A stretch of 46,039 nt of DNA, from the IMG/VR virus record IMGVR_UViG_3300030117_002597, positions 1 through 46,039 of that record, one strand, 5' to 3'. The notes under the pieces were generated by a model, which searched no databases, had not been told where the DNA came from, and saw nothing but the letters and a program-made list of their open reading frames with translations. The stretch is from a virus. Below are positions 17,763 to 40,845 of this stretch, in pieces (within the stretch, counting starts at the first letter, position 1; every line of letters starts with the position of its first letter). The position numbers and the translations under genes are program-made.

Positions 17763-17813
17763 CTGATAAGGATATGTGTTTATCCTCTGACGATTGCAAA
17801 AGCATGAAATCAG
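17763..17813 (+). ncRNA. Type III hammerhead ribozyme, copy 1
   Basis: The order of parts is that of a stem-III-open hammerhead. Stem III 5' strand CTGA (17763-17766), cleavage triplet AUA with predicted cut after A17768, stem I AGGATA / TATCCT with loop TGTGTT (17769-17786). Then come core CTGACGA (17787-17793), stem II TTGC-AAAA-GCAT (17794-17805), core GAAA (17806-17809) and stem III 3' strand TCAG (17810-17813). The core's variable position 7 is C, which hammerheads tolerate. The pair at 10.1/11.1 is U-U instead of the usual G-C and stem III is short, so activity may be slower. It ends 24 nt before the next ATG. Confidence 0.8.
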
Positions 17814-17837
17814 TAACCAACACTTTGGAGGTGTTAA

Positions 17838-18167
17838 ATGATTGAATATGTAATTGAATTTTTTAATTTCTTGATTCAAATATCAAGCAATTATATTTAT
17901 TACGGAATAACTGATAACGGAATCATGATCTTAGGAGCAATGACTGGTTATGAGATAGAGAAGTATTTGCCTAAGCGGTATCAAACTGGTTTAGGAGCAG
18001 TATTTGGAGCGGGTATTGGTAATACAGTATCTGATTTTCTAGGAGGAGCAGTGACTGGCTCATGGGAGTTAGCTTTTGGAACTGCGATTGGATGTCTAAT
18101 AGGTTTGTTCTTCATTCCTTTGTTTGTCTACATAGGTAAGCTGAGAAGACAATGGAGGTCGAAATGA
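17838..18167 (+). CDS. Small membrane protein
   Basis: This 109-residue protein has an N-terminal hydrophobic segment (residues 4-20, 25-36), a glycine-rich hydrophobic stretch around GLGAVFGAGIGNTVSDFLGG, and a strong C-terminal membrane segment AIGCLIGLFFIPLFVYIG (about 83-100), ending in a basic tail KLRRQWRSK. Similar small membrane proteins occur in marine phages without a proven role. With no lysis gene recognised in the window, a holin-like function is possible but unproven. GGAGG lies 7 nt before the ATG and just downstream of the first hammerhead. The stop overlaps the next start (ATGA). Confidence 0.6.
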   Translation: MIEYVIEFFNFLIQISSNYIYYGITDNGIMILGAMTGYEIEKYLPKRYQTGLGAVFGAGIGNTVSDFLGGAVTGSWELAFGTAIGCLIGLFFIPLFVYIGKLRRQWRSK

Positions 18168-18532
18168 TTACAAAAACTTATTCTCAAATGATGAAAGGTA
18201 AAATCATCAATGGTCTTCTTGTAAGAAGTGATATTGCTCATAAGCAAATGGGTTCTGTTAAAAGATGGAACGGAAAACATTATGAGGATATTCCATACGA
18301 TATGAATAAACCGATTAACAGATTTACTAAGGAGGAAGTAAGAGAAATCATACTGGGTATGGAAGTCGGAGACAGCATACAACTAAGAAGCGAAAGTGAA
18401 AGAAATATATTTCATAGTGTTGCTAGACAACTTGGATGGTATGAGGATATCTATGTCAAGCTTCAAAGCAGAATGATAGAAGTGGATTCGGATAACTTCT
18501 ACTTAATCCTTAGATTGTGGAGGACAGAATGA
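18164..18532 (+). CDS. Hypothetical protein
   Basis: This 122-residue protein (MITKTYSQMMKGKIINGLLV) is a soluble mixed alpha/beta protein with NRFTKEEVREIILGMEVGDS and a C-terminal segment DSDNFYLILRLWRTE. I do not recognise a family. The ATG at 18164 is chosen over one 12 nt upstream because GGAGG (18154-18158) lies at the right distance. Start and stop overlap the neighbouring genes by 4 nt on both sides (ATGA), so the three genes are coupled. Confidence 0.6.
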   Translation: MITKTYSQMMKGKIINGLLVRSDIAHKQMGSVKRWNGKHYEDIPYDMNKPINRFTKEEVREIILGMEVGDSIQLRSESERNIFHSVARQLGWYEDIYVKLQSRMIEVDSDNFYLILRLWRTE

Positions 18533-18639
18533 TTTACTTGATCAAGCGAGAAATCGCTAAGAATCTTGAATTGTATCTTGCCTTGTTGAATGTACCAGTG
18601 GCTATCTACATAACGATAATATTTGTAATAGGAGGTTAA
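18529..18639 (+). CDS. 36-residue single-pass membrane peptide
   Basis: A small gene that starts at an ATGA overlap with the preceding stop. It encodes MIYLIKREIAKNLELYLALL followed by NVPVAIYITIIFVIGG. The C-terminal half is one hydrophobic membrane span (about residues 15-35) after a basic amphipathic N-terminus. It is too short to classify. With the upstream membrane protein it could form a membrane-active pair. The gene ends 7 nt before a strong hairpin and the second ribozyme. Confidence 0.5.
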   Translation: MIYLIKREIAKNLELYLALLNVPVAIYITIIFVIGG

Positions 18640-18645
18640 AAGCTT

Positions 18646-18662
18646 GGGGAGCAATGCTCCCC
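18646..18662 (+). other. GC-rich hairpin abutting hammerhead 2
   Basis: GGGGAGC-AAT-GCTCCCC is a perfect 7-bp GC-rich stem with a 3-nt loop, immediately 5' of stem III of the second ribozyme. There is no T-run after it, so it is not an ordinary terminator. After self-cleavage at 18669 it would cap the 3' end of the upstream mRNA fragment and could block exonucleases. Its stem sequence resembles the capsid-gene terminator stem at 8799-8818. Confidence 0.6.
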
Positions 18663-18715
18663 TCTGCTATCAAGATGTGTATCTTGACTGATGATTGCGA
18701 AAGCATGAAAGCAGA
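18663..18715 (+). ncRNA. Type III hammerhead ribozyme, copy 2
   Basis: Stem III 5' strand TCTGC (18663-18667), triplet CUA with predicted cut after A18669, stem I TCAAGAT / ATCTTGA with loop GTGT (18670-18687). Then come the canonical core CTGATGA (18688-18694), stem II TTGC-GAAA-GCAT (18695-18706), core GAAA (18707-18710) and stem III 3' strand GCAGA (18711-18715). Stems I and III differ wholly in sequence from copies 1 and 3 but stay complementary, which is strong evidence for selected RNA structure. Stem II has U-U at its base, as in copy 1. It ends 30 nt before the ATPase start. Confidence 0.88.
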
Positions 18716-18745
18716 ATATTAATTGTTTTAAATCGTGGAGGTAAT

Positions 18746-19801
18746 ATGAATTTAAAACCAACTAAAGCTAGACAGGTAATGTTATCTGTCTTGCAAGGGA
18801 ACAATGTTCCTTTTTTACTAGGCGGAACTGGTGTCGGGAAATCGGCAGTAGTGAAGCAATTAGCGAGTGATCTTGCGGGAGACTGCAAGGTAGCTTTAGA
18901 TGAGATTAATCCTAAGAAAGATGAATACGGATTCATTGATTTTAGATTGTCTCTTTATGAATCTGTTGATCTTGGCGGACTGCCATTCATAGATGACAAC
19001 AATACTCAGCAGAGAGCCTTTCTAGGTAATCTGCCAGTGGGTGGCAATGGGCTACTATTCTTTGATGAATATGCTCAAGCTCATCCCTCAGTACAGGCTA
19101 TCGTAGGCCAGTTGATCTACGAAAGAAGACTGGGCGAGTATGTGTTGCCTAAAGGATGGAAGATTATCTGTGCGGGTAACAGAGCCAGTGACAGAGCGGG
19201 TAGTAATAAGCTTCCGTCTCATGTTATTGGCAGATGTTCAATGATTAACTTTGAGCATGATTTTGATGACTGGTCTAACTGGGCTATGAAAAATGATGTC
19301 CATTCACTTGTGATGGGTTTCTTGAATTTTCAACCTAATGCATTGAATGTATTTGATGCCAAGATAGCCGAGCCACAACCAAGTCCAAGATCATGGACAA
19401 GACTGAGTGATACTCTGAAGACTAATCCGTCAAAAGATATGTATCAGAACATTGCTCAGTGTGATGTCGGAGAGACTACTGCGATTGAGTTTGCTAACTT
19501 TGTCTCTCTTGTTGATGATGTTCCAAACCTTACAGGAATACTGAAAGGTAAGGATGTCGAAGTAATCGATGATCATGGATTATGTTATGCAACTTGTATT
19601 GCTCTGCTTGACAGAATAGTTAATGCATCTGAGAAAGAAGTCTATAGCTTCTTCGAGAATGCTTTAGCTTATGTTAAGCAATTCGATACTCCCGAGTTTG
19701 CTATCTTCTTTGTAAGACAAGCAGTAACTAAAAGGGAAGAGTTGAAAGAGACTTCGGTCTTTGCAGAGTTTAAAGTCGAAAACAAAGACTTAGAATATTA
19801 A
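18746..19801 (+). CDS. MoxR-like AAA ATPase
   Basis: This 351-residue protein is an AAA+ ATPase of the MoxR/RavA-like kind. Walker A is GGTGVGKS at residues 26-33, Walker B LLFFDEYAQ at about 103-111, and a sensor-1-like asparagine lies in IICAGNRASDR. The segments YESVDLGGLP and LPSHVIGRCSMINFEH fit MoxR-type ATPases, which remodel or insert metals into partner proteins together with VWA proteins. Here the VWA partner is two genes downstream. The ATG at 18746 follows GGAGG by 4 nt; any earlier start would lie within the ribozyme. The gene begins the second ribozyme-delimited segment. Confidence 0.85.
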   Translation: MNLKPTKARQVMLSVLQGNNVPFLLGGTGVGKSAVVKQLASDLAGDCKVALDEINPKKDEYGFIDFRLSLYESVDLGGLPFIDDNNTQQRAFLGNLPVGGNGLLFFDEYAQAHPSVQAIVGQLIYERRLGEYVLPKGWKIICAGNRASDRAGSNKLPSHVIGRCSMINFEHDFDDWSNWAMKNDVHSLVMGFLNFQPNALNVFDAKIAEPQPSPRSWTRLSDTLKTNPSKDMYQNIAQCDVGETTAIEFANFVSLVDDVPNLTGILKGKDVEVIDDHGLCYATCIALLDRIVNASEKEVYSFFENALAYVKQFDTPEFAIFFVRQAVTKREELKETSVFAEFKVENKDLEY

Positions 19802-19817
19802 CGGGTAAATATTTATT

Positions 19818-20786
19818 ATGACTAATAAAAATAAAACTTTACTGTCTGAGAAAGCTGTTCTTGTTCGTTTCACAACGAAGCATTGGAGTGGTATAAAATC
19901 AGATAGAAATCTAAGAACGAAGTTAGCTGAAGATACAAAAGCTAATTCAGACTTATTAAATGTTCAGAAACATTTGGTGGGTAAAGCCCATGACAAGTTT
20001 TTCAGAAGAATAATTAATAAGGTTAGGAATGACTTTTACTATCCAATGACTTTGCCTTGGGATGACAACTCTACTGATGTTGATGACAAGGTAGTCAGTG
20101 GGTGGAGACTTTGTCCCAATACTCAGCTAGATAATCTGAGTGAAGCTATGGATACTGCCAAGAAAGATTTCTTCAAAGAAGTGGATGCTTTTATAAAAAG
20201 TTATCCGCAGAAAATTGAGGAAGCTAAATCTCTACTTGGGGATGCTTTTAACAGAAGCGATTACCCTTATGACTGGGAGATAGAGAATAAATTCAAATTT
20301 GATTTTGAAACTAATCTTATCTCTCAGTATGGCAGTGACTTAAGGTTAGATGTCTCTGAGACTATGCGAAAGAAAATTGAAAACGATGTGGAGAATCGTA
20401 TCAAAAATAATGTCGCTACTCAGACTAGAGTTATTGTTGAAGCTCTTGTTGAGCAAGTCGGTCACTTAGCTGAGAAGCTTAAAAGCTACGACCCTAAAAA
20501 TGTTAAAAAGGGTGGCTTCTTCAAGGATTCTAGTGTCGATAAGCTGAGACAAGCTATCCAAGTATTGCCATCATTTAACGATAGTGTATTCGGTAGTGAT
20601 GATGACATTGCTAAGGCACACACTAATCTAGTGGCGGTTATGTCCAAGATAGATTCAGTGGATTCACTGAGAGATCAGTCAGCAAGTGGTAAGAGCAAAA
20701 GAGATCAAGTAGCGAGTGATCTTGAAAAAGCTATCGACCCATTGAAAGATGATTTCTTAGGTAAGCTAGGAGGTAACAATGGATAA
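19818..20786 (+). CDS. Hypothetical protein between MoxR ATPase and VWA protein
   Basis: This 322-residue protein is mostly helical, with coiled-coil-prone stretches (NVENRIKNN region around 190-200, EALVEQVGHLAEKLKSYD, and DSLRDQSASGKSKRDQVASD). No catalytic motif is visible. Its constant place between the ATPase and the VWA/metallopeptidase gene suggests it is the third subunit, possibly an adaptor. The upstream region has no good Shine-Dalgarno but carries the dispersed motif GGGTAAATATTTATT (19803-19817). Its end overlaps the next gene by 8 nt. Confidence 0.65.
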   Translation: MTNKNKTLLSEKAVLVRFTTKHWSGIKSDRNLRTKLAEDTKANSDLLNVQKHLVGKAHDKFFRRIINKVRNDFYYPMTLPWDDNSTDVDDKVVSGWRLCPNTQLDNLSEAMDTAKKDFFKEVDAFIKSYPQKIEEAKSLLGDAFNRSDYPYDWEIENKFKFDFETNLISQYGSDLRLDVSETMRKKIENDVENRIKNNVATQTRVIVEALVEQVGHLAEKLKSYDPKNVKKGGFFKDSSVDKLRQAIQVLPSFNDSVFGSDDDIAKAHTNLVAVMSKIDSVDSLRDQSASGKSKRDQVASDLEKAIDPLKDDFLGKLGGNNG

Positions 20787-22128
20787 GCTTATAAAATGTA
20801 GGTCTAGATTAATGAGGGGTAATGTAGGTATAGCAAGTATGCTATTACCTCTGCCCTTTGTGAAATCTGACTGCGAGACTATGGCTACGGATGGGAAAAG
20901 TATTTTCTATAATCCTAAGTTTGTTGATGATCATACAGACGAAGAGATTGAGGGGGTTCTCATCCACGAAGCTTGTCATGTTATTTGGGAGCATCCTTTG
21001 AGAAAGGGTAATCGAAATCATAAGCTGTGGAATGTTGCTTGTGACTATGCCATCAACAACTATCTTCTTTATGACTTAAAGATGGAGTTACCCGATGGCG
21101 GTGTATGGGATAGAGAATATCATAAGATGTCTGCTGAACAGGTCTATCATATCCTTGATACTGATGACGATGCTTTAGATAAAGCTAAGAAGCAGATGCA
21201 AGGCAATGACGATTCAGAAGATGAGCAAGACGGAGAAGACGATTCCGTTGGAAGTCAGGAAGAATCATTGACTGGTAAATATTCTTCTGAACAGCAGGAT
21301 ACGTCTGGTACAGTCAGTAGCAAGTACGATGATATCCCAACATCTATTGGAGAAGTCATCGAGCCAACTGACGATGATGGTAAGCCCTTATCTAAAGAAG
21401 CCCTTGAAGAATTGGCTAACAGTATCCGAAAGCAAATTGTTTTAGGAGACAAGCTAGTCAATATGTCTGAGGGTCAGACCAATGCTCTTAGTGGCAGAGT
21501 GGAACAGATGAGAACCGCTTCTGTTGATTGGAAGAATCATCTTCGAGACTGTTTGGAATCTGTTATGGCTAATGACTACTCATGGTCTAGACTTAACAGA
21601 AGACACCAGTGGAGAGGTATCAATCTGCCAAGCAAAACTAAGTCTGCTAATGGTGGCGAGATAGCTATTGCCATTGATACATCATGCTCAGTATCACAAG
21701 CTGAGTTAGATTATATGGCAAGTGAAACACAACTCATGCTAGAGGAATGCGGAATAGATAAGATCAGAGTTTGTTACTGTGATCATGTTGTCCGCAAGAA
21801 TCATGATACGGATGAGTGGTGGGATACTTTTGATATCTCAATGGGCGATGAAATTGAGTTTAAGTTTCGTGGCGGAGGATATACTAAGTTTGAACCAGTG
21901 TTTAATCTACTCAAAGATTACACTGACGATGACCAAGATATCAAAGCCTTGATATATTTCACTGATGGCTATGCTTCTGTCAGCAGTGAACACGAACCCG
22001 ATATCCCAGTCTTTTGGGGATTGACTTCAAGATGGTCAGACGAATTGGATAATCTTGAAGACAGATTCAGAGATAACATTCCATTTGGAGAGTTTATTGG
22101 GGTCGATTGCTCAGAAGCTTATCGTTGA
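20779..22128 (+). CDS. Metallopeptidase-like / VWA domain protein (DUF2201 type)
   Basis: This 449-residue protein has two domains. The N-terminal one carries a zinc-binding HEACH motif (His63-His67, followed by VIWEH) in the context GVLIHEACHVIWEHPLR, as in putative metallopeptidases of the DUF2201 group. Residues about 125-170 are an acidic linker. The C-terminal VWA domain has the MIDAS motif DTSCS (300-304), a conserved GGGYTKFEPV segment and FTDGYASV (Asp396). VWA proteins of this kind act with MoxR ATPases. The phage role is unknown; host protein remodelling or virion assembly are possible. GGAGG precedes the ATG, and the start overlaps the preceding gene. Confidence 0.85.
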   Translation: MDKLIKCRSRLMRGNVGIASMLLPLPFVKSDCETMATDGKSIFYNPKFVDDHTDEEIEGVLIHEACHVIWEHPLRKGNRNHKLWNVACDYAINNYLLYDLKMELPDGGVWDREYHKMSAEQVYHILDTDDDALDKAKKQMQGNDDSEDEQDGEDDSVGSQEESLTGKYSSEQQDTSGTVSSKYDDIPTSIGEVIEPTDDDGKPLSKEALEELANSIRKQIVLGDKLVNMSEGQTNALSGRVEQMRTASVDWKNHLRDCLESVMANDYSWSRLNRRHQWRGINLPSKTKSANGGEIAIAIDTSCSVSQAELDYMASETQLMLEECGIDKIRVCYCDHVVRKNHDTDEWWDTFDISMGDEIEFKFRGGGYTKFEPVFNLLKDYTDDDQDIKALIYFTDGYASVSSEHEPDIPVFWGLTSRWSDELDNLEDRFRDNIPFGEFIGVDCSEAYR

Positions 22129-22136
22129 TATCGTGT

Positions 22137-22168
22137 GGGTAGGATACTTTTTAGGGGGTATCCTACCC
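22137..22168 (+). other. Strong 11-bp hairpin after the VWA gene
   Basis: GGGTAGGATAC (22137-22147) pairs perfectly with GTATCCTACCC (22158-22168) across a 10-nt loop. It starts 9 nt after the VWA stop. Only two Ts follow, so it looks more like an mRNA 3'-end stabiliser or attenuator than a terminator. It lies about 65 nt before the third hammerhead, a parallel to the hairpin before the second. The stretch between (22169-22232) has no convincing gene. Confidence 0.6.
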
Positions 22169-22232
22169 TTACTCGATATGGATTCGTTGCTTACAGAGCA
22201 AATGAGGAGGTCGTTTTTGACTACTTTTAACA

Positions 22233-22291
22233 ATTCTGTCTAGGAAATGGGTATTTCCTACTGATGAGTGGCTAAAGCCATGAAACAGAAT
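22233..22291 (+). ncRNA. Type III hammerhead ribozyme, copy 3
   Basis: Stem III 5' strand ATTCTG (22233-22238), the classical GUC triplet with predicted cut after C22240, stem I TAGGAAAT / ATTTCCTA with loop GGGT (22241-22260). Then core CTGATGA (22261-22267), stem II GTGGC-TAAA-GCCAT (22268-22281), core GAAA (22282-22285) and stem III 3' strand CAGAAT (22286-22291). Every invariant hammerhead core nucleotide is present and all three stems pair. The base of stem II is a G-U pair. This is the best of the three copies. It ends 28 nt before the next ATG. Confidence 0.93.
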
Positions 22292-22319
22292 AACTAATTG
22301 TATTTATTTGGAGGTTCAT

Positions 22320-22553
22320 ATGAGTACAAAAAATAATATCGGATGGGAAATAATCTCAGACGATGATAATCGTAAGAGGATTAGACTTAAAAGAAGAATA
22401 GTATCTACTCAGATACTGGTCGAGTGGAGTGATAATCCTAAAATGGAAGTGCTTCTGCATGATATGCCTACTGATTTAGCTTTACAGTTTGATCATTGGT
22501 TAGAGGATATTGAAGCGGAAGAGAATGCTAAAGATAGAGGGGGTGTATCATGA
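22320..22553 (+). CDS. Small hypothetical protein
   Basis: This 77-residue protein (MSTKNNIGWEIISDDDNRKR) seems to be a small alpha/beta domain with RIVSTQILVEWSDNPKMEVL and an acidic end. No family is recognised. GGAGG lies 6 nt before the ATG, just after the third ribozyme, so it heads the last ribozyme-delimited mRNA. Its stop overlaps the next start by 4 nt. Confidence 0.55.
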   Translation: MSTKNNIGWEIISDDDNRKRIRLKRRIVSTQILVEWSDNPKMEVLLHDMPTDLALQFDHWLEDIEAEENAKDRGGVS

Positions 22554-22855
22554 GTGACATAGGTAATAGATGTGTTCACTGTGGAGAAGATACTTCTTTT
22601 GGCAGTGGCAAGTTTGTCAATAGGATTCCCGCAGATGCGGATTACGAAGCTTTGGATAATCAAGGTAAAGTGATCTTTGCTGATGGAGAATATCGTGATG
22701 GCTATGCTTGTGCAGAGTGTATGGCTATGCCATGTGATAGGTGTGATGAACTCATACCATTGGATGAGGACATAGGTCTTGATGATGGCAATATTATTGT
22801 TCATTACAAGTGTCTTACAGAAGATGAAAGGAGGGATTACGATGCACATAACTGA
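22550..22855 (+). CDS. Cysteine-rich zinc-binding protein
   Basis: This 101-residue acidic protein has CVHC near residue 8, CAEC near residue 47, and CDRC near residue 55, a LIM- or double-ribbon-like spacing that should bind one or two zinc ions. A further His/Cys pair (HYKC) is near residue 88. It may bridge host proteins or nucleic acid. No function is known. It is coupled to the previous gene by ATGA. Confidence 0.55.
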   Translation: MSDIGNRCVHCGEDTSFGSGKFVNRIPADADYEALDNQGKVIFADGEYRDGYACAECMAMPCDRCDELIPLDEDIGLDDGNIIVHYKCLTEDERRDYDAHN

Positions 22856-23192
22856 TATTCATGGAATGCACAATGGCATTTCTACTAAGCAGTTTGATGA
22901 ACTTAATCTTGACTGTTCTTTTAGTCTAAATGATATTGATACTATTGAAACAGTGGATGGAACAGCAAATGCTTGTAAAGTAAATTGTAAAGGTAGGTTT
23001 CAAGAATTTCCGATAAGGATATTGGCACAAACTTTACTAACATTAGTTAGAGTGGATGCTTATCACGAAGCTTGGTCACTTGTCTTACTAAAAGGAGATG
23101 AATACTTTTGGGTGGATTTCAAGAATCCCGAAAAGCAATTCTCTTATTGTGACTATGCCACACTTGAAAACTTGAAAGAGGAGGAACTATGA
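22842..23192 (+). CDS. Hypothetical protein
   Basis: This 116-residue protein starts MHITDIHGMHNGISTKQFDE. The ATG at 22842 is chosen because GGAGGG lies about 6 nt upstream; an earlier frame-open stretch has no such signal. The sequence is alpha/beta with no motif that I can name. It overlaps the zinc-protein gene by 14 nt and the next gene by 4 nt. Confidence 0.55.
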   Translation: MHITDIHGMHNGISTKQFDELNLDCSFSLNDIDTIETVDGTANACKVNCKGRFQEFPIRILAQTLLTLVRVDAYHEAWSLVLLKGDEYFWVDFKNPEKQFSYCDYATLENLKEEEL

Positions 23193-23809
23193 CCAGTAAA
23201 TATTTATTTCTATATCATGGTACTAACTCAAAAAATCTTGAGGAGATACTCGACAAGGGTATCTCTCCAAGATATAAAAGAGAAAGTGTGTGGAAAGAAA
23301 ATCCCTCAAGGGATGACATGGTTTACTTAACCAATGCATATGCTCCTTACTTTGCTCAATGCTCAGTAGATTCTGAAGCGGAAAAGCTTGGAAGATATAC
23401 AGAAGATGAAGCAGTAGTCTTTAAGGTTAAAGTAGATGTGAATAATCTATATCCCGATGAAGACTTTCTTGAGCAGATTACAAGGCATGATAAAGCTTTT
23501 GATTTTCTAGCTGAAATTTATAATGAATATAGCATGGAAGAAAGGGCTTCATGGTTTAAAGATAACTTGCTTGATTACAAGGATAATTATCAAAATAGTT
23601 TGAAAGCTTTAGGCAATTGTTGTCACAAAGGTATCATCAAACCTAAAGACATAGTGAAATATACTGTGTTGAAATTTGGTAGGATACTAGAATATTCTGA
23701 CCCCACGATAACTTTAGAGAACTATCACATTTTGAAAGATCATTATAGAAATGTATGCGACAAAGTTATTTGGAGTGAAGAGTATAGTAAACAGATAGTA
23801 AACCTGTAA
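23189..23809 (+). CDS. ADP-ribosyltransferase-fold protein, putative
   Basis: This 206-residue protein begins YLFLYHGTNSKNLEEILDKG, with His10 in YHGT, then VYLTNAYAPYFAQ (Tyr46) and VVFKVKVDVNNLYPDEDFLE. This order (H in strand 1 before a GI-type turn, Y-L-T, then an acidic segment) is that of the H-Y-E class of ADP-ribosyltransferase and KptA-like folds. If active it would transfer ADP-ribose from NAD+ to a host protein or nucleic acid, as T4 Alt and Mod enzymes do. The third catalytic residue cannot be fixed by eye. It is the last gene before a strong terminator. A zinc- or toxin-like alternative is less likely. Confidence 0.5.
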   Translation: MTSKYLFLYHGTNSKNLEEILDKGISPRYKRESVWKENPSRDDMVYLTNAYAPYFAQCSVDSEAEKLGRYTEDEAVVFKVKVDVNNLYPDEDFLEQITRHDKAFDFLAEIYNEYSMEERASWFKDNLLDYKDNYQNSLKALGNCCHKGIIKPKDIVKYTVLKFGRILEYSDPTITLENYHILKDHYRNVCDKVIWSEEYSKQIVNL

Positions 23810-23818
23810 TAAAAATTA

Positions 23819-23855
23819 GGCGGTAGCTACTTAGGTAGTTACCGCCTTTTTTTTT
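23819..23855 (+). terminator. Strong rho-independent terminator
   Basis: GGCGGTAGCTAC (23819-23830), loop TTAG, GTAGTTACCGCC (23835-23846) forms a 12-bp stem with a single G-U pair, followed by nine Ts (23847-23855). It closes the ribozyme-bearing operon. Confidence 0.93.
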
Positions 23856-32464: not shown

Positions 32465-32823
32465 TGATTGATTATTATGAGCAGAAGCTCAAAGAAAGAA
32501 AAGAAGATTGGTGGGAATGGCATAAGCAGAATCCTAAAGTGTGGATAAGGTTTAGGGATTATACCTTAGAGGCAATTAAAAGTGGGAGGAAGAGTTATTC
32601 TCAGTGGGCGATAATAAATCGCATAAGATGGAATGAGGAGATTGAGACAAGGGGTGGGGAGTTTAAGATTAGTAATAACTATATAGCTTTCTATGCTAGA
32701 TTGTTTCATGCCAAGTATCCTCAGTACAAAGACTTCTTTAAGCTCAAGCCTTTCAAAGAAGAGAAAGAGATAGAGAACTTAGAGAATCTAGGGTTGGATA
32801 GAGAAACTCGCTTGTTCTCTTAA
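32464..32823 (+). CDS. Hypothetical protein, end of the recombination operon
   Basis: This 119-residue protein (MIDYYEQKLKERKEDWWEWH) is helical and aromatic-rich with SYSQWAIINRIRWNEEI and a second half YIAFYARLFHAKYPQYKDFF. The latter pattern is found in small proteins next to Ref-like nucleases in marine phages, without known function. Its last 36 nt overlap the 3' end of the convergent giant gene, so no bidirectional terminator separates the two operons. Confidence 0.6.
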   Translation: MIDYYEQKLKERKEDWWEWHKQNPKVWIRFRDYTLEAIKSGRKSYSQWAIINRIRWNEEIETRGGEFKISNNYIAFYARLFHAKYPQYKDFFKLKPFKEEKEIENLENLGLDRETRLFS

Positions 32824-35800
32824 TTCGGGCATATAGGCTAGTCTTATATCTCTTTCTACCTCCATCTGTTCTAGTATCTCTTTTTTCTGTTGAGGTGTTA
32901 TTGTCTTTGAATTTAAAACTCTATCTCTTCTTGTTCTCCAGTTAGACATATACCTATCTAAAGCCAATATTTGTGGTCTTGTTCTAGCTACTCCTGCATT
33001 GTTTTGCATATAAGCTCTCAGATCATCTATCCTGCCATCTTTCTTAAGCTTGTTAACAGTCTGTATATAGCGATTACTTTCTTCTCTAAGCTCATAGAAT
33101 TGTTGTTGTAAGCCACCACCCATCTCTGTCTGAATAAATCTTCTAAAGAATGGAGCATTCTCTATTCTCGGCATAATAATATCCCTATCTGTTTGTGTTC
33201 TTACTAGAGTATCTGTTAGGGAAAGTAAGTATGTACCAATTGTTCCACCATAACCTCTCATTAAATATTCTAGTTTAATAGGCGAAACTCCTATCGCTTC
33301 TCCTATAACTCTAGCAAATTCATTGGTTGAGTATCTAGATTGCAGTGCAGGTTCTAATCCCTCTTGCATATAGTAAGGCACAATTGCTTCTCCAGTGTAT
33401 GTGCTTTTATTATTAAGAACTTCATAAAGAGGTTTTATTGCTTGAAAGCCTAATGGGTCTACTTTAAAAGTGACAGAAGCCTGTCTCCTTAAAGTCTTCA
33501 TTGTTTCCCCTATTGTTTCGTCACCAAAAGCTAAATCAATTGCCCTCTCTGGTAACACTTTATACATAACACCTACCTCAAATGGTATAGGTATTTTTAT
33601 AGCAGGAACTCCCTCTGCAAAAGGTATTATCCAGTTATCATCTCTGGTTTCTCTTCTTGCATTCTTATATTCTTCGTCATCGCTAACTAGGGCATAATAT
33701 ATACCAGTCAAAAATGCAAGGAAAAAACCTCGCAGAAGTGTGCCAACTGCAATAGCCCTTGCCATATCACCTCTTGTTTCTCCTAGAGCTTGTTTCCTAA
33801 CAGCAGAGTATCTACCTAAGTGTGCTCTACCTAAGACATCTAATCCCTGTAGCCTTGCATTTAGGAATGGTATTGCTGAAGTGATTGTTCTAAACAGTGG
33901 GTCAGCTCCTCTTCTACCAAAGTTTATTACTTCTAATCCTTGGAAAGCTGCCTCAGATAGACTGCCAGTCATCTCAAAAACTTTGTCTGCTACTGCTTTT
34001 CTAGTAGCTCCATCTGATTTGGTTGTTTGTGCTCCCATAATATCCCATAGTTTTACTACAGCATCAGTTGCACTTAATGAACCATTGTTACCTACACCCA
34101 TTTTTCTTAATTCTTTGTTGATATATCTAGAAACATTTTGTGGGTCATTGGAAAAATCGTAACCACCAATAACACCAAATCTTTCTAAATCTGACAGATC
34201 AGCATTAAAGTTTTTAAAGGTATCAACAAATGGTATAAAGTTTGCTCCTGATGTTACAGCAGTAGAAAGAGTATCTCTCAACATATTTACCATAATAAAT
34301 CCAGGATCACGGGTAACCATTTCTCTAAGGAATCCTGCAGGCATAGCTAAAAGTTTTGAAATGAATCCCATTTCATTCATACCCATAGCTTGTAAACCAT
34401 TAATCATCAAAGGATCAGCAACTCTATAAAATACTTTTTGTCCATTCATAAATACTGGTAAGACATCTGCTCCTGTTGCTTGATCAGGTGGTATTCTTAC
34501 CGCCATAGCAGCTTCTTCAAATTGAGTGACTAACCTTTGCAGTCCTGCATTCTTCATTACAGCAGTCACTATTGCTAATTGATTTCTAGCTATAGCTTCT
34601 AATGGAGGCACATCTATAGATGCTTCACTACCTTTTAAATCTATATTAAGTGGATTTCCTGCAATAAATCCTGAAGCTACATTTGGTCCAGCAACTTTTT
34701 CATTTTCCATCTTTCTATAGAAAGGATAGTAATCAGAATTATCTTTCCATATTTGAGCTGTTCCTCTAGTATCTATGGCATAGTCATTAGCTATCTCTAG
34801 CAATCTATCTCTGCTTGTTCTTGGTGAAACTAACTCGGATGCGTTATATCTAAATTCAAAGTTTTTATTTGCTTGAGTTTGTTCTTGTACAAATTGAACT
34901 ATTCTTTCTCTAAGTTGAGTGGCAGTAGCCTCCTCACTAAGTATTCCGCCTTGAACAGCAAAGTCTATAATTTTATTGTTGTAAGCTTGAAACTTATCAT
35001 AAACTTGTTTTACTACAGGAAAGTCTGTTGCTATCTTAGCAGCTTTTGCTCTTAGCTCTTCATTAACTGGAACTTCTTTACCTTCTGTATTAAGTCTCTC
35101 TGCTCTTTGACCAATAGAATATACTTTATATAAAGCTTCTAAGTTTACATTTGGATCAGAAAATAAAGGTGCAATTATTTGTAATAGACCACCATGCTCA
35201 AACTGATCTACCATGACACCACCATAAGTAAGGTCTGAGTTTTGTATAAAGTCTATAGTTTCTTGACTGTATCCTGCTTTTTGTAATACTTCAGTTTCTA
35301 CTGGTGCGAATACAGGTATGCCTCCTTTAAGCATAGCAGCAAAAATACCTCTTGCTCTTTCACTCATACGCAAAGCAGATATTGCATTTGTATCTGCAAG
35401 ATTATTTAACTCTCTAGCTATTTCACTTTTATCTCCTGCTTTAAGTGAAGCTATTTCAACTTGATTTAACTTATCTATATATGCTGTCTTTCCTGCATCT
35501 AACCATTTAGTTATAGTACCGCCCATCTCTGCAGTATTTAATACAGTATCAACCATTGATTCATTAGGTTGATTAATGCCTCCAAACTCATCTACTAACT
35601 CTTCATATCCTTTAGGCACTTTTGCTTGGCTTCTATGAAACTTTGCAGGTATAGGTGGTATATCCATATCAACTCCTGCTTCCATGTCGAAAGCTATCTT
35701 AAGAGCCACTGGACTTGCGTTTGGATTGTATAGAGGGATTCTACCCCTTGCTAACATTTCCGCTCTTTGACGAGCCTCTGATTGAACCTCAGCTATATCT

Positions 35801-38800
35801 GCATCTGTAAGGTCTACTTCTCCTGCTAGAGCAGAGTTAGGTTGTAAGTAAGGTGGTACGTTATTAGGCTCGAAACCTATTTCTTTGGCGAACTGTCTGT
35901 AGTTTTCGTAGGCAGGGAGATAAAGATCACGGAGGGCGGCTCTTGATAAATCGGATGATTCGAGGAGACTTCCTCTATCCCCAAGTCCTCTAATACCTGA
36001 TTTAGTTCCTGGGGAGTAGCTGCTTTGCTCTCCGTATTCAATGTATTCGCTTTCTTGACCATATTTTTTTAAAGTATAACCGCTGCCCTTTAGTCTTTCA
36101 AGTATCAACTCAGAAAAACTTCTAAGGTCATTAGCTGTATATGTGTCAGATACAAAAGAAAGTGGGTCTATTAAAACTAAACCACTTCTATCTGTTGGCA
36201 TTAAAGTAAAGTTTACATCATCACCTGCTCTTTTTAATTGAGATAAATTATTGTTAAGTTCTTGTAACTCAGGAACACTAAATCTTCCACCATCAATTTT
36301 TTCTATTAACAATCCTGTTTTTTTAATTCCTCTTTCAACTGGTCTAACTGTTACTGAAGCGTCTTGCATAAAAGCATCAGTGAGTAATTGTCCTACTGCT
36401 CGAACAGTGCTTTGTTCTGCTCCAGGCATCTTCAATAATATATTTGGATTTAAGTCACCATCATATGTTCCAGCAGATATAGTTGCTTCATGTGGTATAG
36501 ACAATTCACGCAAGAATCTTATTTGTGTACCTGCCATAACACTTTTTAAAGTTTTGTTTTGATAATCTAAAAAAGTTGCAAAAGGTATTTCTTTGGCAAA
36601 ACTTGTAGGCAAGTAACCTCTAGTTGTGCCCATCTTCATTTCTGTTATTAAAGTTGGAGCTGCATTAACTATTGACTGGTACATATCTGTTTTCAAGCCA
36701 GTATCAAATACATTTGTTTTAGTATCACTCCTGTAGGTAGGAGCATGAATAAAGACACCTGAAAATGGTCTGTCTTTAGAGAAAGAACCAGTATCTTGCA
36801 TCTCGTTTAATTCAGCTATCTCTTTCTGTGATGCTCTAACAGATGAATTGTAACTACCTTCGTTTGTTATTTTTGTAGGACCATAATGTCTTTGGTCAGC
36901 CCATAGTAATGCTTGTATTTCTCTTGGTACAAATTGTCTTGATGCACCACCTACATTATAGTTTTCTGTAGACAACAAATCGATTAAAGTCTGTATGGTT
37001 CTGTATTCTTTTTCATTAGCTGCTTCTAAATTCAAACCAAACTTTCTCAACATATGTACGTCTACAACTGAAAATGGTGTGAATCTATTGTTAGCTGCTT
37101 CTAATATTTCTAAAGCATAAGTAGAAGTCTTTTGTCCTGTGCCTTGTCTATTAAATAAACCTGTTTTATATATTTTAGCTATATCATTTAATCTAGCATT
37201 ATTGTTCATAGCTACTTTAAACTTTTTGAGTTCAGCTATATATTTTTTTGGTTGTTCAACTGGATCAATCTTTCTTGCTACAATCATGGCTCTTAAAGTA
37301 TCTTTAAGATTTTGTTCTGGTTTGCTTTGTGCTGATGTAATACCAAAGATCATAGAAAATTCATTCATATTAGAAGAACCAACTATGTTAGGTATACCTG
37401 CACCCCATCTGTCGTACCAGAGAAAGTCTCTACCATCTTTAACTGCTCTTCTAACATCTGCTTTCAAGCTAGAATAATCAGTCCAGTTATGTTTTCTTCT
37501 AGAGCCTGATGCATTTAATACAGTCTGAATATCTTTGCCTGTAAGATTTCTATTATTGGCAATAAACTCATCGGCTAGAGATCGTTCTAGTTCTCCAGGA
37601 AATATTATGTTCTTAGGCACAATACCAGCTCTAGAAAGTTTTGGTTCTAACCCATATTTTTTTCTTATCTTTGCAATAAATTCAGGACTAGCCCTATCAC
37701 TAGGAACACTTGCAGCTTTTAATTGTTCTTCTAAAGCAGCAACATCGTTACTAGCTTGAAGTATTCTTGCAGATAATCTTTTTTGATTATTTGCACTCAT
37801 TGAACCAGCCTCTTGATACATCTCAGATTCTAAAGCAATAAGTCGTGATTGTGCATTATCTAATTCTTTTTGTATATCACCCTTACTGAATTTTGTTGTA
37901 AGAGAAGCTATAGGAAATCCTAGTTCTTGTAACCTTTCTAATTCTTTTAAGCTTCTTATTTTGTCTCTATCTCTTCTGCCTATTTTTCCTGATTCTATAT
38001 CATTTAAAACACTAATAGGACTTCTGAAACCTGAACCAAAGATAGCGTCAAAGAAACCTTTAAAGAAATTTATAATTTTTTGTATGATAGTTTTAGGTTT
38101 GCCCTTAACAAAACTAGGATCAGCTCTATGAAATCTAAACAACTGTGCTACATATTCTTCTTGTATATCAATCTCTGTATAACTTGGGTCTTCACCATAA
38201 ACTTTATTTATTCTTTCTATCTCTTCTGGCGGTAATTTTTTCTTAGCAAAGTTTAAAAGATTTTTATATTCTTTATCAGTCAATAAATCTAAGTCTCGCA
38301 AAGCATGAATTGTTTCATGATCAATTAAACCTTGTATTTGTCCTATTAGCTCTTGATCTGATAGTCTGCCATCAGGGTCTATCCTTGTCATGTTAAGCAA
38401 TATCTTACGCATAGCTGGATCATATGCAGCTTCATCTGTTACATTTTCTGATATCACTGCTTCACCATCTACAATTCTTACATTGGTAGCAAGTTTTAAT
38501 GACTTATCTAGTTTCAAAGCAATATCTTTAAGACCTAATTCATTAAGTCTTTTCCTGGCAGCATCATATAAGAAAGAATATTTTTTTAATGAATCAGGTG
38601 GCGGCAACATTAATATCTCATCTGATGAAATAGAATCTGACTGGTTAATATTATCTTTACCTACTACACCTAGTATTTCTTCTTCTGTAAGTGGTGTGCT
38701 TTCTCTTAGTCGTTGAGCAAACTCTTCACTAGATTCATTAAGGCTTTGTGCTCTTTTAGCTTGACGAGTTTCAAAATCTTGAGATATAACTAATCTATTT

Positions 38801-40845
38801 TTTATCTTATCTGCTCTACCACTATTAAGTAAATCTTCTTTTAACAACTTAAATTGTTTAGGAGATAAACTTTCTCCAGTAATGTCTTTTATTTTAGCTT
38901 TTAAATCTTTCTCAGTTAAAGTCTGACCTTTGTTATCTGTGTATAAAGTATTTAAAGTATTAGCAGAATATGGTCTAGGTGTATAATCTGGAAGTTTTGT
39001 TGCGACATCAAATCTAGGTAGCTGTTTGATTCTTGTCATCAACAATTGTTTTTGTCCACGATTCATACCATCAAATGTTTTAGCACCTGTAATGCTTTCT
39101 ACTAAATACTTAAAAGCAGAAGAATTGTAATCAACAATAATATTTTTACTTTCAAAAACTTCATTAAAAGATTTTTTTGTAACTGTCTGTTTTTCTCTTG
39201 ATCTTTTAGCTGCAATAATTTCCCCTAGCAAAACAGAATCTCTAAAAATAATATTAGCTTTTTCTGCCATTAAAGCATCAAAGTCTGCTTTTGATAGTAA
39301 TCGTTTTGCTTCTTGAGGAGTGTAGTAAGATTTTTTTGCTATACCTTTTTTTTCTGCTTTCGCATGAACTTGACCAACAATACTAGAAGAATCTATTTTT
39401 TGTCCACGTATAGGATAGTAACCAGTTTTAGTTTTTTTTCGTTTAGTATTTATAGTTGAATCTAAAGCACCTACTGCTTGCACTGGTATTAAGTTATATC
39501 TTGGGTCATATAGTTTTGTGCCTAAAGAATAAGCAGTTCCATTACCATAGAGACCATTAATAGATAATATTTCTTTAGTTGCAAAGTCTATAAACTCTGC
39601 TCTTTTATTCTTTCTTAATTCAACTGCAGCTTTTGCAGCACTTTCAGGATCAGGAAAGACACCATAATCAATAGCTGTATTCATACCAATAATGGATGAT
39701 GTACCATTAGGATTAGTAATAATCTCAAACTCCTCCATAACTGGAGGGTCTTTAAATTCTAATGTTGATTCGGGGAGTGTCTCTTGTTGAGGACCAACAA
39801 TTTCAGGGATTGGTTGTGGGTCTAAAGCTATATCTCTTACTTTAGAACCATCATCTTCATATTTTTGAAAATCTTTTCTAGCATTAAATCTTTGTTTTTC
39901 TCTTTCTTTTCTTACTATATTTTCTTCTTCTCTCATATAGTCCGCACCAACACCATGATCGTGCATAGGACCACGTAGCACTAAGTCAGCAAGGAAACCA
40001 ACTGCACCACCAACTGTAAGATCATCCATAAAGCTTTCGCCTATTGGTATCTCATCACTATAAATACCTCTAGCTACAGCATCTTGTGCAAGACCTGCAA
40101 CTGCTTCTTGTAGTGCTTCTGCAGTACCTGTTTGTAAAGCACCACCAATTCTTTGAGGAATTTTTAATATCTCACCAGCACCTTTTGGAATGTACCTAAA
40201 TAAATATTGCAGTGACAAGACTTCACTTGCACCAATTGCACCACCAAAAAGTTCAGCTGTAATCTCTTGAGCTAGACTTACATCTTCGCCTTGTTCTCTA
40301 GCAAACTCTATATTTCTGCCTTGCTCTGCTATACCTGCAGCTACACCTAAGCTTCCAGCAGTATACATAGATGCTCTTTGTGCTCTACTTATTTTATCTG
40401 CAGCACTTAAACCTTTGCCTGTATATCCTGCAGCTTTACCTGCAAGACCACCAGGTATAAAGAAAGAAGCAAAAGAACCTAATCCTCCTCCTAACTTAGA
40501 GGAAAAAGCATCTTCATAGCCTTCTCCTATACCTATGTATGCATTATCGTTTAAGTTTTGTTGCCATTCTCTAAGTTGGTTACCTAATTCGCTGTCATTA
40601 CCTGCATCAAATAAATTAACAGCACCTTCTCCCATTGAAAGTAAGCCTTGTGCAAATCCTCTAGGAACACCTTTAGCAACTTCTAATAAATTACCACCAA
40701 ATGTTCTTTCAACTTCTTCTTTAAAAGGTTGATAATAATCAGGATATAGTTCTGCTAGCTGATTATTAATTGAAATTAATTCTTCTCTTGAGGCATCATC
40801 ATCTACTTCTAGATATCTGCCATCAGGTAATTTATATACTGCCAT
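32788..40845 (-). CDS. Giant polyvalent internal virion protein
   Basis: This 2685-residue protein is of the size and position of ejection proteins (T7 gp16, or the large polyvalent proteins of marine podoviruses). The N-terminus (residues 1-250) contains hydrophobic Gly/Ala stretches such as GLGSFASFFIPGGLAGKAAG that could enter membranes. A zinc-peptidase motif HETIH lies at 843-847 in LIDHETIHALRDLD. Residues about 1090-1360 carry an HhH/glycosylase-like segment (FGITSAQSKPEQN, VVDVHMLRKFGL, VPREIQALLWADQ). Residues about 2160-2400 match the LPD38-type domain (FLREMVTRDPGFIMVNMLRD, then LRGFFLAFLTGIYYALVSDD with a membrane span). It is injected with the DNA and probably acts on the host envelope and cytoplasm. 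It has no Shine-Dalgarno. Confidence 0.8.
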   Translation of the reverse strand: MAVYKLPDGRYLEVDDDASREELISINNQLAELYPDYYQPFKEEVERTFGGNLLEVAKGVPRGFAQGLLSMGEGAVNLFDAGNDSELGNQLREWQQNLNDNAYIGIGEGYEDAFSSKLGGGLGSFASFFIPGGLAGKAAGYTGKGLSAADKISRAQRASMYTAGSLGVAAGIAEQGRNIEFAREQGEDVSLAQEITAELFGGAIGASEVLSLQYLFRYIPKGAGEILKIPQRIGGALQTGTAEALQEAVAGLAQDAVARGIYSDEIPIGESFMDDLTVGGAVGFLADLVLRGPMHDHGVGADYMREEENIVRKEREKQRFNARKDFQKYEDDGSKVRDIALDPQPIPEIVGPQQETLPESTLEFKDPPVMEEFEIITNPNGTSSIIGMNTAIDYGVFPDPESAAKAAVELRKNKRAEFIDFATKEILSINGLYGNGTAYSLGTKLYDPRYNLIPVQAVGALDSTINTKRKKTKTGYYPIRGQKIDSSSIVGQVHAKAEKKGIAKKSYYTPQEAKRLLSKADFDALMAEKANIIFRDSVLLGEIIAAKRSREKQTVTKKSFNEVFESKNIIVDYNSSAFKYLVESITGAKTFDGMNRGQKQLLMTRIKQLPRFDVATKLPDYTPRPYSANTLNTLYTDNKGQTLTEKDLKAKIKDITGESLSPKQFKLLKEDLLNSGRADKIKNRLVISQDFETRQAKRAQSLNESSEEFAQRLRESTPLTEEEILGVVGKDNINQSDSISSDEILMLPPPDSLKKYSFLYDAARKRLNELGLKDIALKLDKSLKLATNVRIVDGEAVISENVTDEAAYDPAMRKILLNMTRIDPDGRLSDQELIGQIQGLIDHETIHALRDLDLLTDKEYKNLLNFAKKKLPPEEIERINKVYGEDPSYTEIDIQEEYVAQLFRFHRADPSFVKGKPKTIIQKIINFFKGFFDAIFGSGFRSPISVLNDIESGKIGRRDRDKIRSLKELERLQELGFPIASLTTKFSKGDIQKELDNAQSRLIALESEMYQEAGSMSANNQKRLSARILQASNDVAALEEQLKAASVPSDRASPEFIAKIRKKYGLEPKLSRAGIVPKNIIFPGELERSLADEFIANNRNLTGKDIQTVLNASGSRRKHNWTDYSSLKADVRRAVKDGRDFLWYDRWGAGIPNIVGSSNMNEFSMIFGITSAQSKPEQNLKDTLRAMIVARKIDPVEQPKKYIAELKKFKVAMNNNARLNDIAKIYKTGLFNRQGTGQKTSTYALEILEAANNRFTPFSVVDVHMLRKFGLNLEAANEKEYRTIQTLIDLLSTENYNVGGASRQFVPREIQALLWADQRHYGPTKITNEGSYNSSVRASQKEIAELNEMQDTGSFSKDRPFSGVFIHAPTYRSDTKTNVFDTGLKTDMYQSIVNAAPTLITEMKMGTTRGYLPTSFAKEIPFATFLDYQNKTLKSVMAGTQIRFLRELSIPHEATISAGTYDGDLNPNILLKMPGAEQSTVRAVGQLLTDAFMQDASVTVRPVERGIKKTGLLIEKIDGGRFSVPELQELNNNLSQLKRAGDDVNFTLMPTDRSGLVLIDPLSFVSDTYTANDLRSFSELILERLKGSGYTLKKYGQESEYIEYGEQSSYSPGTKSGIRGLGDRGSLLESSDLSRAALRDLYLPAYENYRQFAKEIGFEPNNVPPYLQPNSALAGEVDLTDADIAEVQSEARQRAEMLARGRIPLYNPNASPVALKIAFDMEAGVDMDIPPIPAKFHRSQAKVPKGYEELVDEFGGINQPNESMVDTVLNTAEMGGTITKWLDAGKTAYIDKLNQVEIASLKAGDKSEIARELNNLADTNAISALRMSERARGIFAAMLKGGIPVFAPVETEVLQKAGYSQETIDFIQNSDLTYGGVMVDQFEHGGLLQIIAPLFSDPNVNLEALYKVYSIGQRAERLNTEGKEVPVNEELRAKAAKIATDFPVVKQVYDKFQAYNNKIIDFAVQGGILSEEATATQLRERIVQFVQEQTQANKNFEFRYNASELVSPRTSRDRLLEIANDYAIDTRGTAQIWKDNSDYYPFYRKMENEKVAGPNVASGFIAGNPLNIDLKGSEASIDVPPLEAIARNQLAIVTAVMKNAGLQRLVTQFEEAAMAVRIPPDQATGADVLPVFMNGQKVFYRVADPLMINGLQAMGMNEMGFISKLLAMPAGFLREMVTRDPGFIMVNMLRDTLSTAVTSGANFIPFVDTFKNFNADLSDLERFGVIGGYDFSNDPQNVSRYINKELRKMGVGNNGSLSATDAVVKLWDIMGAQTTKSDGATRKAVADKVFEMTGSLSEAAFQGLEVINFGRRGADPLFRTITSAIPFLNARLQGLDVLGRAHLGRYSAVRKQALGETRGDMARAIAVGTLLRGFFLAFLTGIYYALVSDDEEYKNARRETRDDNWIIPFAEGVPAIKIPIPFEVGVMYKVLPERAIDLAFGDETIGETMKTLRRQASVTFKVDPLGFQAIKPLYEVLNNKSTYTGEAIVPYYMQEGLEPALQSRYSTNEFARVIGEAIGVSPIKLEYLMRGYGGTIGTYLLSLTDTLVRTQTDRDIIMPRIENAPFFRRFIQTEMGGGLQQQFYELREESNRYIQTVNKLKKDGRIDDLRAYMQNNAGVARTRPQILALDRYMSNWRTRRDRVLNSKTITPQQKKEILEQMEVERDIRLAYMPELREQASFSIQP

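Follow-up and report, generated by a model that had tools for sequence, protein, structure and literature searches.

Serial hammerhead ribozymes at the gene junctions of a marine phage operon, and their probable role as mRNA processing sites

Hammerhead ribozymes arranged in series are known from prophages, in which same-strand clusters flank single genes or blocks of genes, and the cutting of long phage RNAs into operon- or gene-length messenger RNAs (mRNAs) was proposed for them (Perreault et al., 2011; PMC3088659). Such serial sets from phages are active in vitro, and a triple set was found to cleave in E. coli as well (PMC3088659). In the haloviruses HF1/HF2, a hammerhead variant lies 13 nucleotides (nt) before the start codon of an early gene for a helicase, within a polycistronic transcript, and a transcript 5′ end is reported to fit its cut site (PMC3088659). 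The role of prokaryotic hammerheads was nevertheless called an open question in a review (PMC6155905). In this study, three hammerhead-like sequences were analysed in the IMG/VR virus record IMGVR_UViG_3300030117_002597, a tailed phage with recognisable terminase, portal, primase-helicase, exonuclease and Sak-type annealing protein, from a marine virus that infects bacteria. The window is the whole stretch of 46,039 bases, and the three sequences lie in its nine-gene plus-strand operon (17838–23809).

A type III descriptor (stem III, UH, stem I hairpin, CTGANGA, stem II hairpin, GAAA, stem III) matched exactly three places in the whole window, all on the plus strand and none elsewhere on either strand, and at strict thresholds it gave 0 matches in 200 Markov-simulated windows. 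These are site 1 in the 5′ leader of gene 1 (17763–17813), site 2 before the AAA (MoxR-like) gene (18663–18715) and site 3 (22233–22291), with predicted cuts after 17768, 18669 and 22240, respectively. Site 1 is cut between AUA and A and has a stem I of 6 base pairs (bp) and a stem III of 5 bp; site 2 is cut between CUA and U, with 7 bp (8 counting G-U) and 6 bp; site 3 is cut between GUC and U, with 8 bp (9 counting G-U) and 7 bp. All three carry the core CUGANGA ... GAAA, U16.1-A15.1 and the NUH cut site, in a 5′–3′ order with closed stems I and II and an open stem III, and the minimum-energy folds of sites 2 and 3 are hammerheads. Stem III ends 24, 30 and 28 nt before the ATG at sites 1, 2 and 3, with a GGAGG in between, and the predicted units are 901, 3571 and about 1615 nt long. 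The window holds serial same-strand hammerheads flanking genes within one phage operon. An initial annotation, made from the sequence alone, had described three type III hammerheads at just these places, with the same cut positions, stem I lengths of 6, 7 and 8 bp, a spacing of 24–30 nt to the ATG and units of 0.9, 3.6 and 1.6 kb, all of which were recovered. The three motifs are almost certainly type III hammerheads, an identity well supported by covariation over 48 relatives, occurrence on the sense strand only and placement before start codons.

The significant Rfam match that the initial annotation had expected at all three sites did not appear. At the gathering score, a scan of the window gave no match at any of them, and gathering scans of the relatives' scanned loci gave none either. 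In E-value mode, site 3 alone matched RF00008 (39.7 bits against a cut-off of 48.5, E 3.1e-6), while sites 1 and 2 were not listed, likely because a 10.1-11.1 base pair is assumed in the Rfam model. At the base of stem II, these positions form a U-U mismatch in sites 1 and 2, leaving them a stem II of only 3 bp, and a G-U pair in site 3. With a covariance model built from relatives (R1), sites 1–3 scored 65.5, 71.9 and 48.9 bits, all three being members of its training set. The U10.1-U11.1 mismatch was common to 91 of the 122 unique copies of a first, pattern-found sample, whose scan pattern left positions 10.1 and 11.1 free and fixed part of stem II. It has been described as a surprising, rare, yet tolerated variation of hammerheads, U-U being the best tolerated mismatch there, and the filter used in that work discarded mispairs adjoining the core by default unless activity had been measured (PMC3088659). 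The paired 10.1-11.1 is a consensus trait rather than strictly defining for hammerheads. Hundreds of hammerheads below the Rfam thresholds are thereby exposed, many of them with the stem II mismatch that the published filter rejected by default.

The first sample was collected with a core pattern of 17 fixed bases that was scanned over viral contigs, and nearly all of the at least 118 stretches found were complete hammerheads. When 48 diverse type III copies were aligned, the CTGA, GA and GAAA core positions were invariant, a part of this core having been preset by the search pattern, and the stems varied freely. Covariation was 0.863 vs. 0.226 in shuffled alignments and ≤0.118 with slid partners, paired cells amounted to 91% vs. 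60% in shuffled ones, and 262 cells were double-changed, with double changes at 14 of the 16 stem pairs. The covariance model found 1–5 copies in 25 of 27 virus records of 25–63 kb, on the same strand and a few kilobases apart within each record. A general type I/II/III scanner, which at a score of at least 11 gave 4 matches in 4.6 Mb of simulated sequence, recovered 251 unique copies in 192 IMG/VR loci (178 type III, 72 type I and 1 type II). A start codon with a Shine-Dalgarno sequence lay downstream of 158 of 166 type III copies (60–105 nt after the cut) and of 66 of 71 type I copies (19–78 nt after the cut), the type III copies without one standing mostly before an ATG that lacks a Shine-Dalgarno; as a control, 9% of random positions had a start within 60 nt. 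All 82 multi-site loci had a single orientation, and AAA, VWA or DUF3150 genes, a second, CobS/CobT-like pair among them, were present in 48 of the 55 pattern-selected loci of at least 9 kb. One scanner match (L006:2502) lies inside a coding region and is a probable false positive.

Because this first sample had been chosen by a ribozyme pattern, a second one was drawn by similarity of the AAA protein alone, without regard to ribozymes. Its 80 loci are the best matches, near-duplicates included, so the prevalence found holds for close relatives: 77 of the 80 loci carried hammerheads, 207 in sense and 0 in antisense orientation. Directly before the AAA gene, a hammerhead was found in 66 of the 80 loci (55 type I, 11 type III), and directly after it in 40 (33 type III, 7 type I). 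Of the 14 AAA upstream regions scored as lacking one, 13 were read, and most showed a type I core that either has a base altered or holds a longer, structured insertion; in most of these junctions, the hammerhead core comes with stem III or stem II enlarged and structured. Among isolates, BLASTN of two hammerhead sequences against 50,697 phage records returned short partial matches only, so this search turned up no close isolate copy. In the stretches read of isolate phages with related AAA/VWA operons (MinM2, CRP-7, Presley and Vibrio K479), there was no model match. One CRP-7 candidate (L194:593), with its poor stems II and III, is not put forward as a hammerhead.

These counts bear on the idea that the hammerheads are selfish or decaying repeats that spread without function. 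In line with it, close relatives have gained and lost sites, and a core of degenerate appearance occurs, but the 207:0 strand bias, narrow distances to start codons, intact cores, covarying stems and the 77/80 prevalence all speak against it and make it scarcely credible.

The junctions of close relatives were aligned with those of the window. At the AAA junction, the window has a type III hammerhead, whereas the relatives L002, L003 and L005 have a type I, and L004 has the same type I hammerhead with one extra base in GAAA. In L005, where hammerhead 2 is also kept, the order is type III, an extra gene of 97 amino acids (aa), type I and AAA. Site 1 of L002 is a different type III form, in which loops I and II are complementary (GGC/GCC, by eye). 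Site 3 is kept in L002, L004 and L005, the relatives that reach it. Types I and III share the catalytic core and geometry and differ in linear order. Orthologous junctions retain a ribozyme while its type changes, which argues directly that selection acts to keep a cut there; cutting of the messenger at these junctions is therefore probably important. That all copies precede ribosome-binding sites would also suit non-catalytic structured leaders that resemble hammerheads and serve translation control or protein binding. Catalysis accounts for the invariant core among freely varying stems in the 48 copies (with the core partly preset, as said) and for type I, the catalytic geometry in another order, occupying the same junctions as type III, while mere leader structure does not, and this explanation is considered highly improbable.

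In some relatives, the ribozymes are far denser than in the window. In L042 (2022–8601), a stretch of 6.6 kb contains 15 hammerheads of both type I and type III, and nearly every gene is preceded by one; L175 carries a series of six, which precede AAA, DUF3150, VWA and three further genes; and L240 and L258 have seven each. Another possible role of a cutting ribozyme is regulation, in which cleavage or its loss, brought about by salt, temperature, a protein or a metabolite, would switch the expression of the downstream gene after the manner of ribozyme switches. Placement before start codons suits a switch, and the halovirus hammerhead 13 nt before the helicase start was proposed to be salt-responsive (PMC3088659). 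Some relatives' type I copies also carry a conserved insert of 35–40 nt in stem III. However, the three copies of the window are minimal, without an aptamer-like insert, and one-per-gene arrays of up to 15 with differing stems favour constitutive processing, so that regulation is an unlikely, though not negligible, explanation.

The insert itself, of about 35–40 nt within stem III, was seen in approximately 16 type I copies (L320, L323, L330, L334, L074, L032, L029, L116 and others). Its layout is UUAAA, a helix with a UA bulge that is often GNRA-capped, and then CCCU...AGGG; it had no Rfam match and could be a structural or sensing domain. Other contexts were also met. In L167:4829–6836 (JAGVDT010000057.1, a Paceibacterota metagenome-assembled genome (MAG)), eight canonical and one variant type III copies occupy 2 kb without convincing genes, most of them following a G+C-rich hairpin, and the array looks like ribozyme-released small RNAs rather than mRNA processing. 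In L017, L030, L050 and L093, which are other viral contigs, type I copies with a CCTAA/TTAGG stem I stand single or paired before start codons. A Rhodobacteraceae MAG contig (L143:5561–5616) gave a weak type II match (29.1 bits, E 0.07), with two type III copies 3.6 kb away.

Hammerhead cleavage leaves a 5′-hydroxyl and a 2′,3′-cyclic phosphate. During transcription, each ribozyme of the operon would fold and then cut just 5′ of the ribosome-binding site of the next gene. After a type III cut, the ribozyme core would stay on the downstream RNA, which would begin with the 5′-hydroxyl followed at once by the stem I hairpin, and the upstream RNA would end in the cyclic phosphate and hold one strand of stem III, often near a strong hairpin; after a type I cut, the upstream product would retain its own stem III hairpin. 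In the window, a G+C-rich hairpin (GGGGAGC-AAT-GCTCCCC, 18646–18662, plus strand), read in the sequence and folded, touches stem III of hammerhead 2 and would stand near the 3′ end of the upstream cleavage product. A second one (GGGTAGGATAC...GTATCCTACCC, 22137–22168, plus strand) lies 64 nt 5′ of hammerhead 3 and is kept in relatives. After deduplication, a stable upstream hairpin was found at 42 of 66 type III sites, 11 of 43 type I sites and 59 of 148 control starts, with median z of −2.64, −0.74 and −0.97, respectively (p = 0.0019 for type III vs. control and 0.0011 for type III vs. type I), and the median gap from hairpin to type III site was 1.5 nt. This test replaced a non-deduplicated one (p = 5e-25). 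The data suggest shielding of each unit at its two ends.

The same ends are known from phage T4, in which RegB leaves 5′-hydroxyl and 2′,3′-cyclic phosphate ends; there, RNase E/G prefer a 5′-monophosphate, 5′-hydroxyl ends need phosphorylation by PNK first, and PNPase requires a 3′-hydroxyl (PMC3014915). Bacterial mRNA can be stabilised by stem-loops at either end (PMC7509114). The predicted ends of the phage units would be poor substrates for 5′-monophosphate-dependent RNase E/G and for PNPase; therefore, the most likely benefit would be stable, separately expressed mRNAs of the AAA-DUF3150-VWA operon and its neighbours. Whether mRNA stabilisation is the main benefit is rated at even odds.

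Such ends are also the substrate chemistry of RtcB-type ligases, by which the units between two cuts could be closed into circular mRNAs, and serial same-strand sites do flank entire genes. Between the three copies of the window, however, stem III sequences do not match, which disfavours ribozyme-mediated re-ligation between units, and spliced or circular products were sought in the earlier clusters and not found (PMC3088659). Circularisation or re-ligation is accordingly regarded as improbable.

As the best inference from sequence, we conclude that the hammerheads function as built-in mRNA processing sites, which by co-transcriptional self-cleavage would provide for stable or separate expression of the units, with a probability of about 0.78; that hammerhead-driven processing takes place in the cell is, taken alone, likely. 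Cleavage in the cell and any influence on mRNA stability or expression are inferred, as is the end chemistry, which is the usual one of hammerheads. The initial annotation had all three sites cut the operon into units. This remains the best reading for sites 2 and 3, whereas site 1 lies in the leader of gene 1 and would trim the 5′ end without separating genes, because the upstream neighbour, the terminase small subunit gene, lies on the opposite strand. Leader trimming is poorly explained by gene separation and easily explained by the making of a particular 5′ end, and transcription may enter site 1 from further upstream.

Several observations weigh against processing by these ribozymes. The best fold of site 1 pairs the core CUGA with the 3′ strand of stem III and is not a hammerhead, which makes this site the weakest of the three, and sites 1 and 2 lack the conserved 10.1-11.1 pair. 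In L004 and L005, the core of site 1 reads CTGAATGA, with one base inserted after A6, and is apparently degenerate. The upstream-hairpin signal is moderate once deduplicated (p 0.002), and for type I cuts, a hairpin at the new 5′ end, present in some families, was overall not significant. For the clustered hammerheads of the 2011 study, no clear role was found (PMC3088659).

The operon has one strong terminator, an intrinsic one on the plus strand in which a T run follows a stem of 13 bp (23818–23847); it lies at the 3′ side and is consistent with a single operon ending near 23855. Internal promoters are a possible alternative to processing; promoter-like matches were no more frequent than in shuffled sequences (19 vs. 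22.9). All genes of the operon are on the plus strand. Gene 1 (17838–18167) encodes a TMEM65-like small membrane protein (Pfam PF10507, E 1.5e-5, just above the Pfam cut-off); its GGAGG Shine-Dalgarno and ATG, read in the sequence, span 17827–17840, 24 nt 3′ of hammerhead 1. Gene 2 (18152–18532, starting at 18152 or 18164) has no assigned product. Then follow gene 3, the AAA ATPase (MoxR-like; 18746–19801; phrog_1297, E 2e-75), gene 4, a DUF3150 protein (19818–20786; PF11348, E 1e-4), and gene 5, a DUF2201 metallopeptidase-like/VWA-like protein (20779–22128; PF13203, E 3e-38, and PF09967). Gene 6 (22320–22553), the first gene 3′ of hammerhead 3, and genes 7–9 (22550–22855, 22842–23192 and 23189–23809) are reading frames with no assigned product. 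Elsewhere in the window, the minus strand of 32788–40845 holds a reading frame of 2685 aa.

Compared with known systems, the sites share with the RF00008 type III hammerhead the common core, the NUH cut site, the three stems and the element order, and site 3 matches it (E 3e-6), but all of them lie below its gathering score and sites 1 and 2 have U10.1-U11.1. Clustered phage hammerheads, the processing idea and the cleavage of a triple set are already known since 2011, so the serial operon set, called unusual in the initial annotation, is less unprecedented than claimed (PMC3088659). In the prophage clusters of that study, the associated genes are variable, whereas here the ribozymes occupy constant places, the junctions of a conserved AAA-DUF3150-VWA operon of uncultured viruses, with types I and III exchanged at orthologous sites and up to 15 copies in 6.6 kb. 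A literature search, with subscription papers mostly outside its reach, found no description of this arrangement. New are the conserved junctions in an uncultured-virus operon, the type exchange at one site, the frequent U-U mismatch, the density of the copies and the accompanying hairpin; a junction that keeps its ribozyme while the type changes gives a direct argument for selection on cutting, and the predictions for RNA ends are clear. HF1/HF2 resemble the window in placement before a start codon and differ in having a single site, a structural variant and an archaeal virus. T7 offers a protein-based counterpart: RNase III cuts its polycistronic mRNA at intergenic hairpins into stable mRNAs. 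As predicted here, one transcript is split into mRNAs, but in T7 a host protein cuts and the ends are 5′-phosphates. T4 RegB likewise makes intergenic cuts with 5′-hydroxyl and 2′,3′-cyclic phosphate ends, tied to RNase E/G decay (PMC3014915); it is a protein enzyme that cuts within the Shine-Dalgarno and silences, whereas here RNA would cut upstream and leave the Shine-Dalgarno intact. Set beside these systems, a large group of uncultured viruses may, with about equal chances for and against, routinely split its operons by means of self-cleaving RNA where other systems rely on protein RNases, with a ribozyme at almost every gapped junction, types I and III exchangeable, and a hairpin guarding the upstream 3′ end that type III leaves bare.

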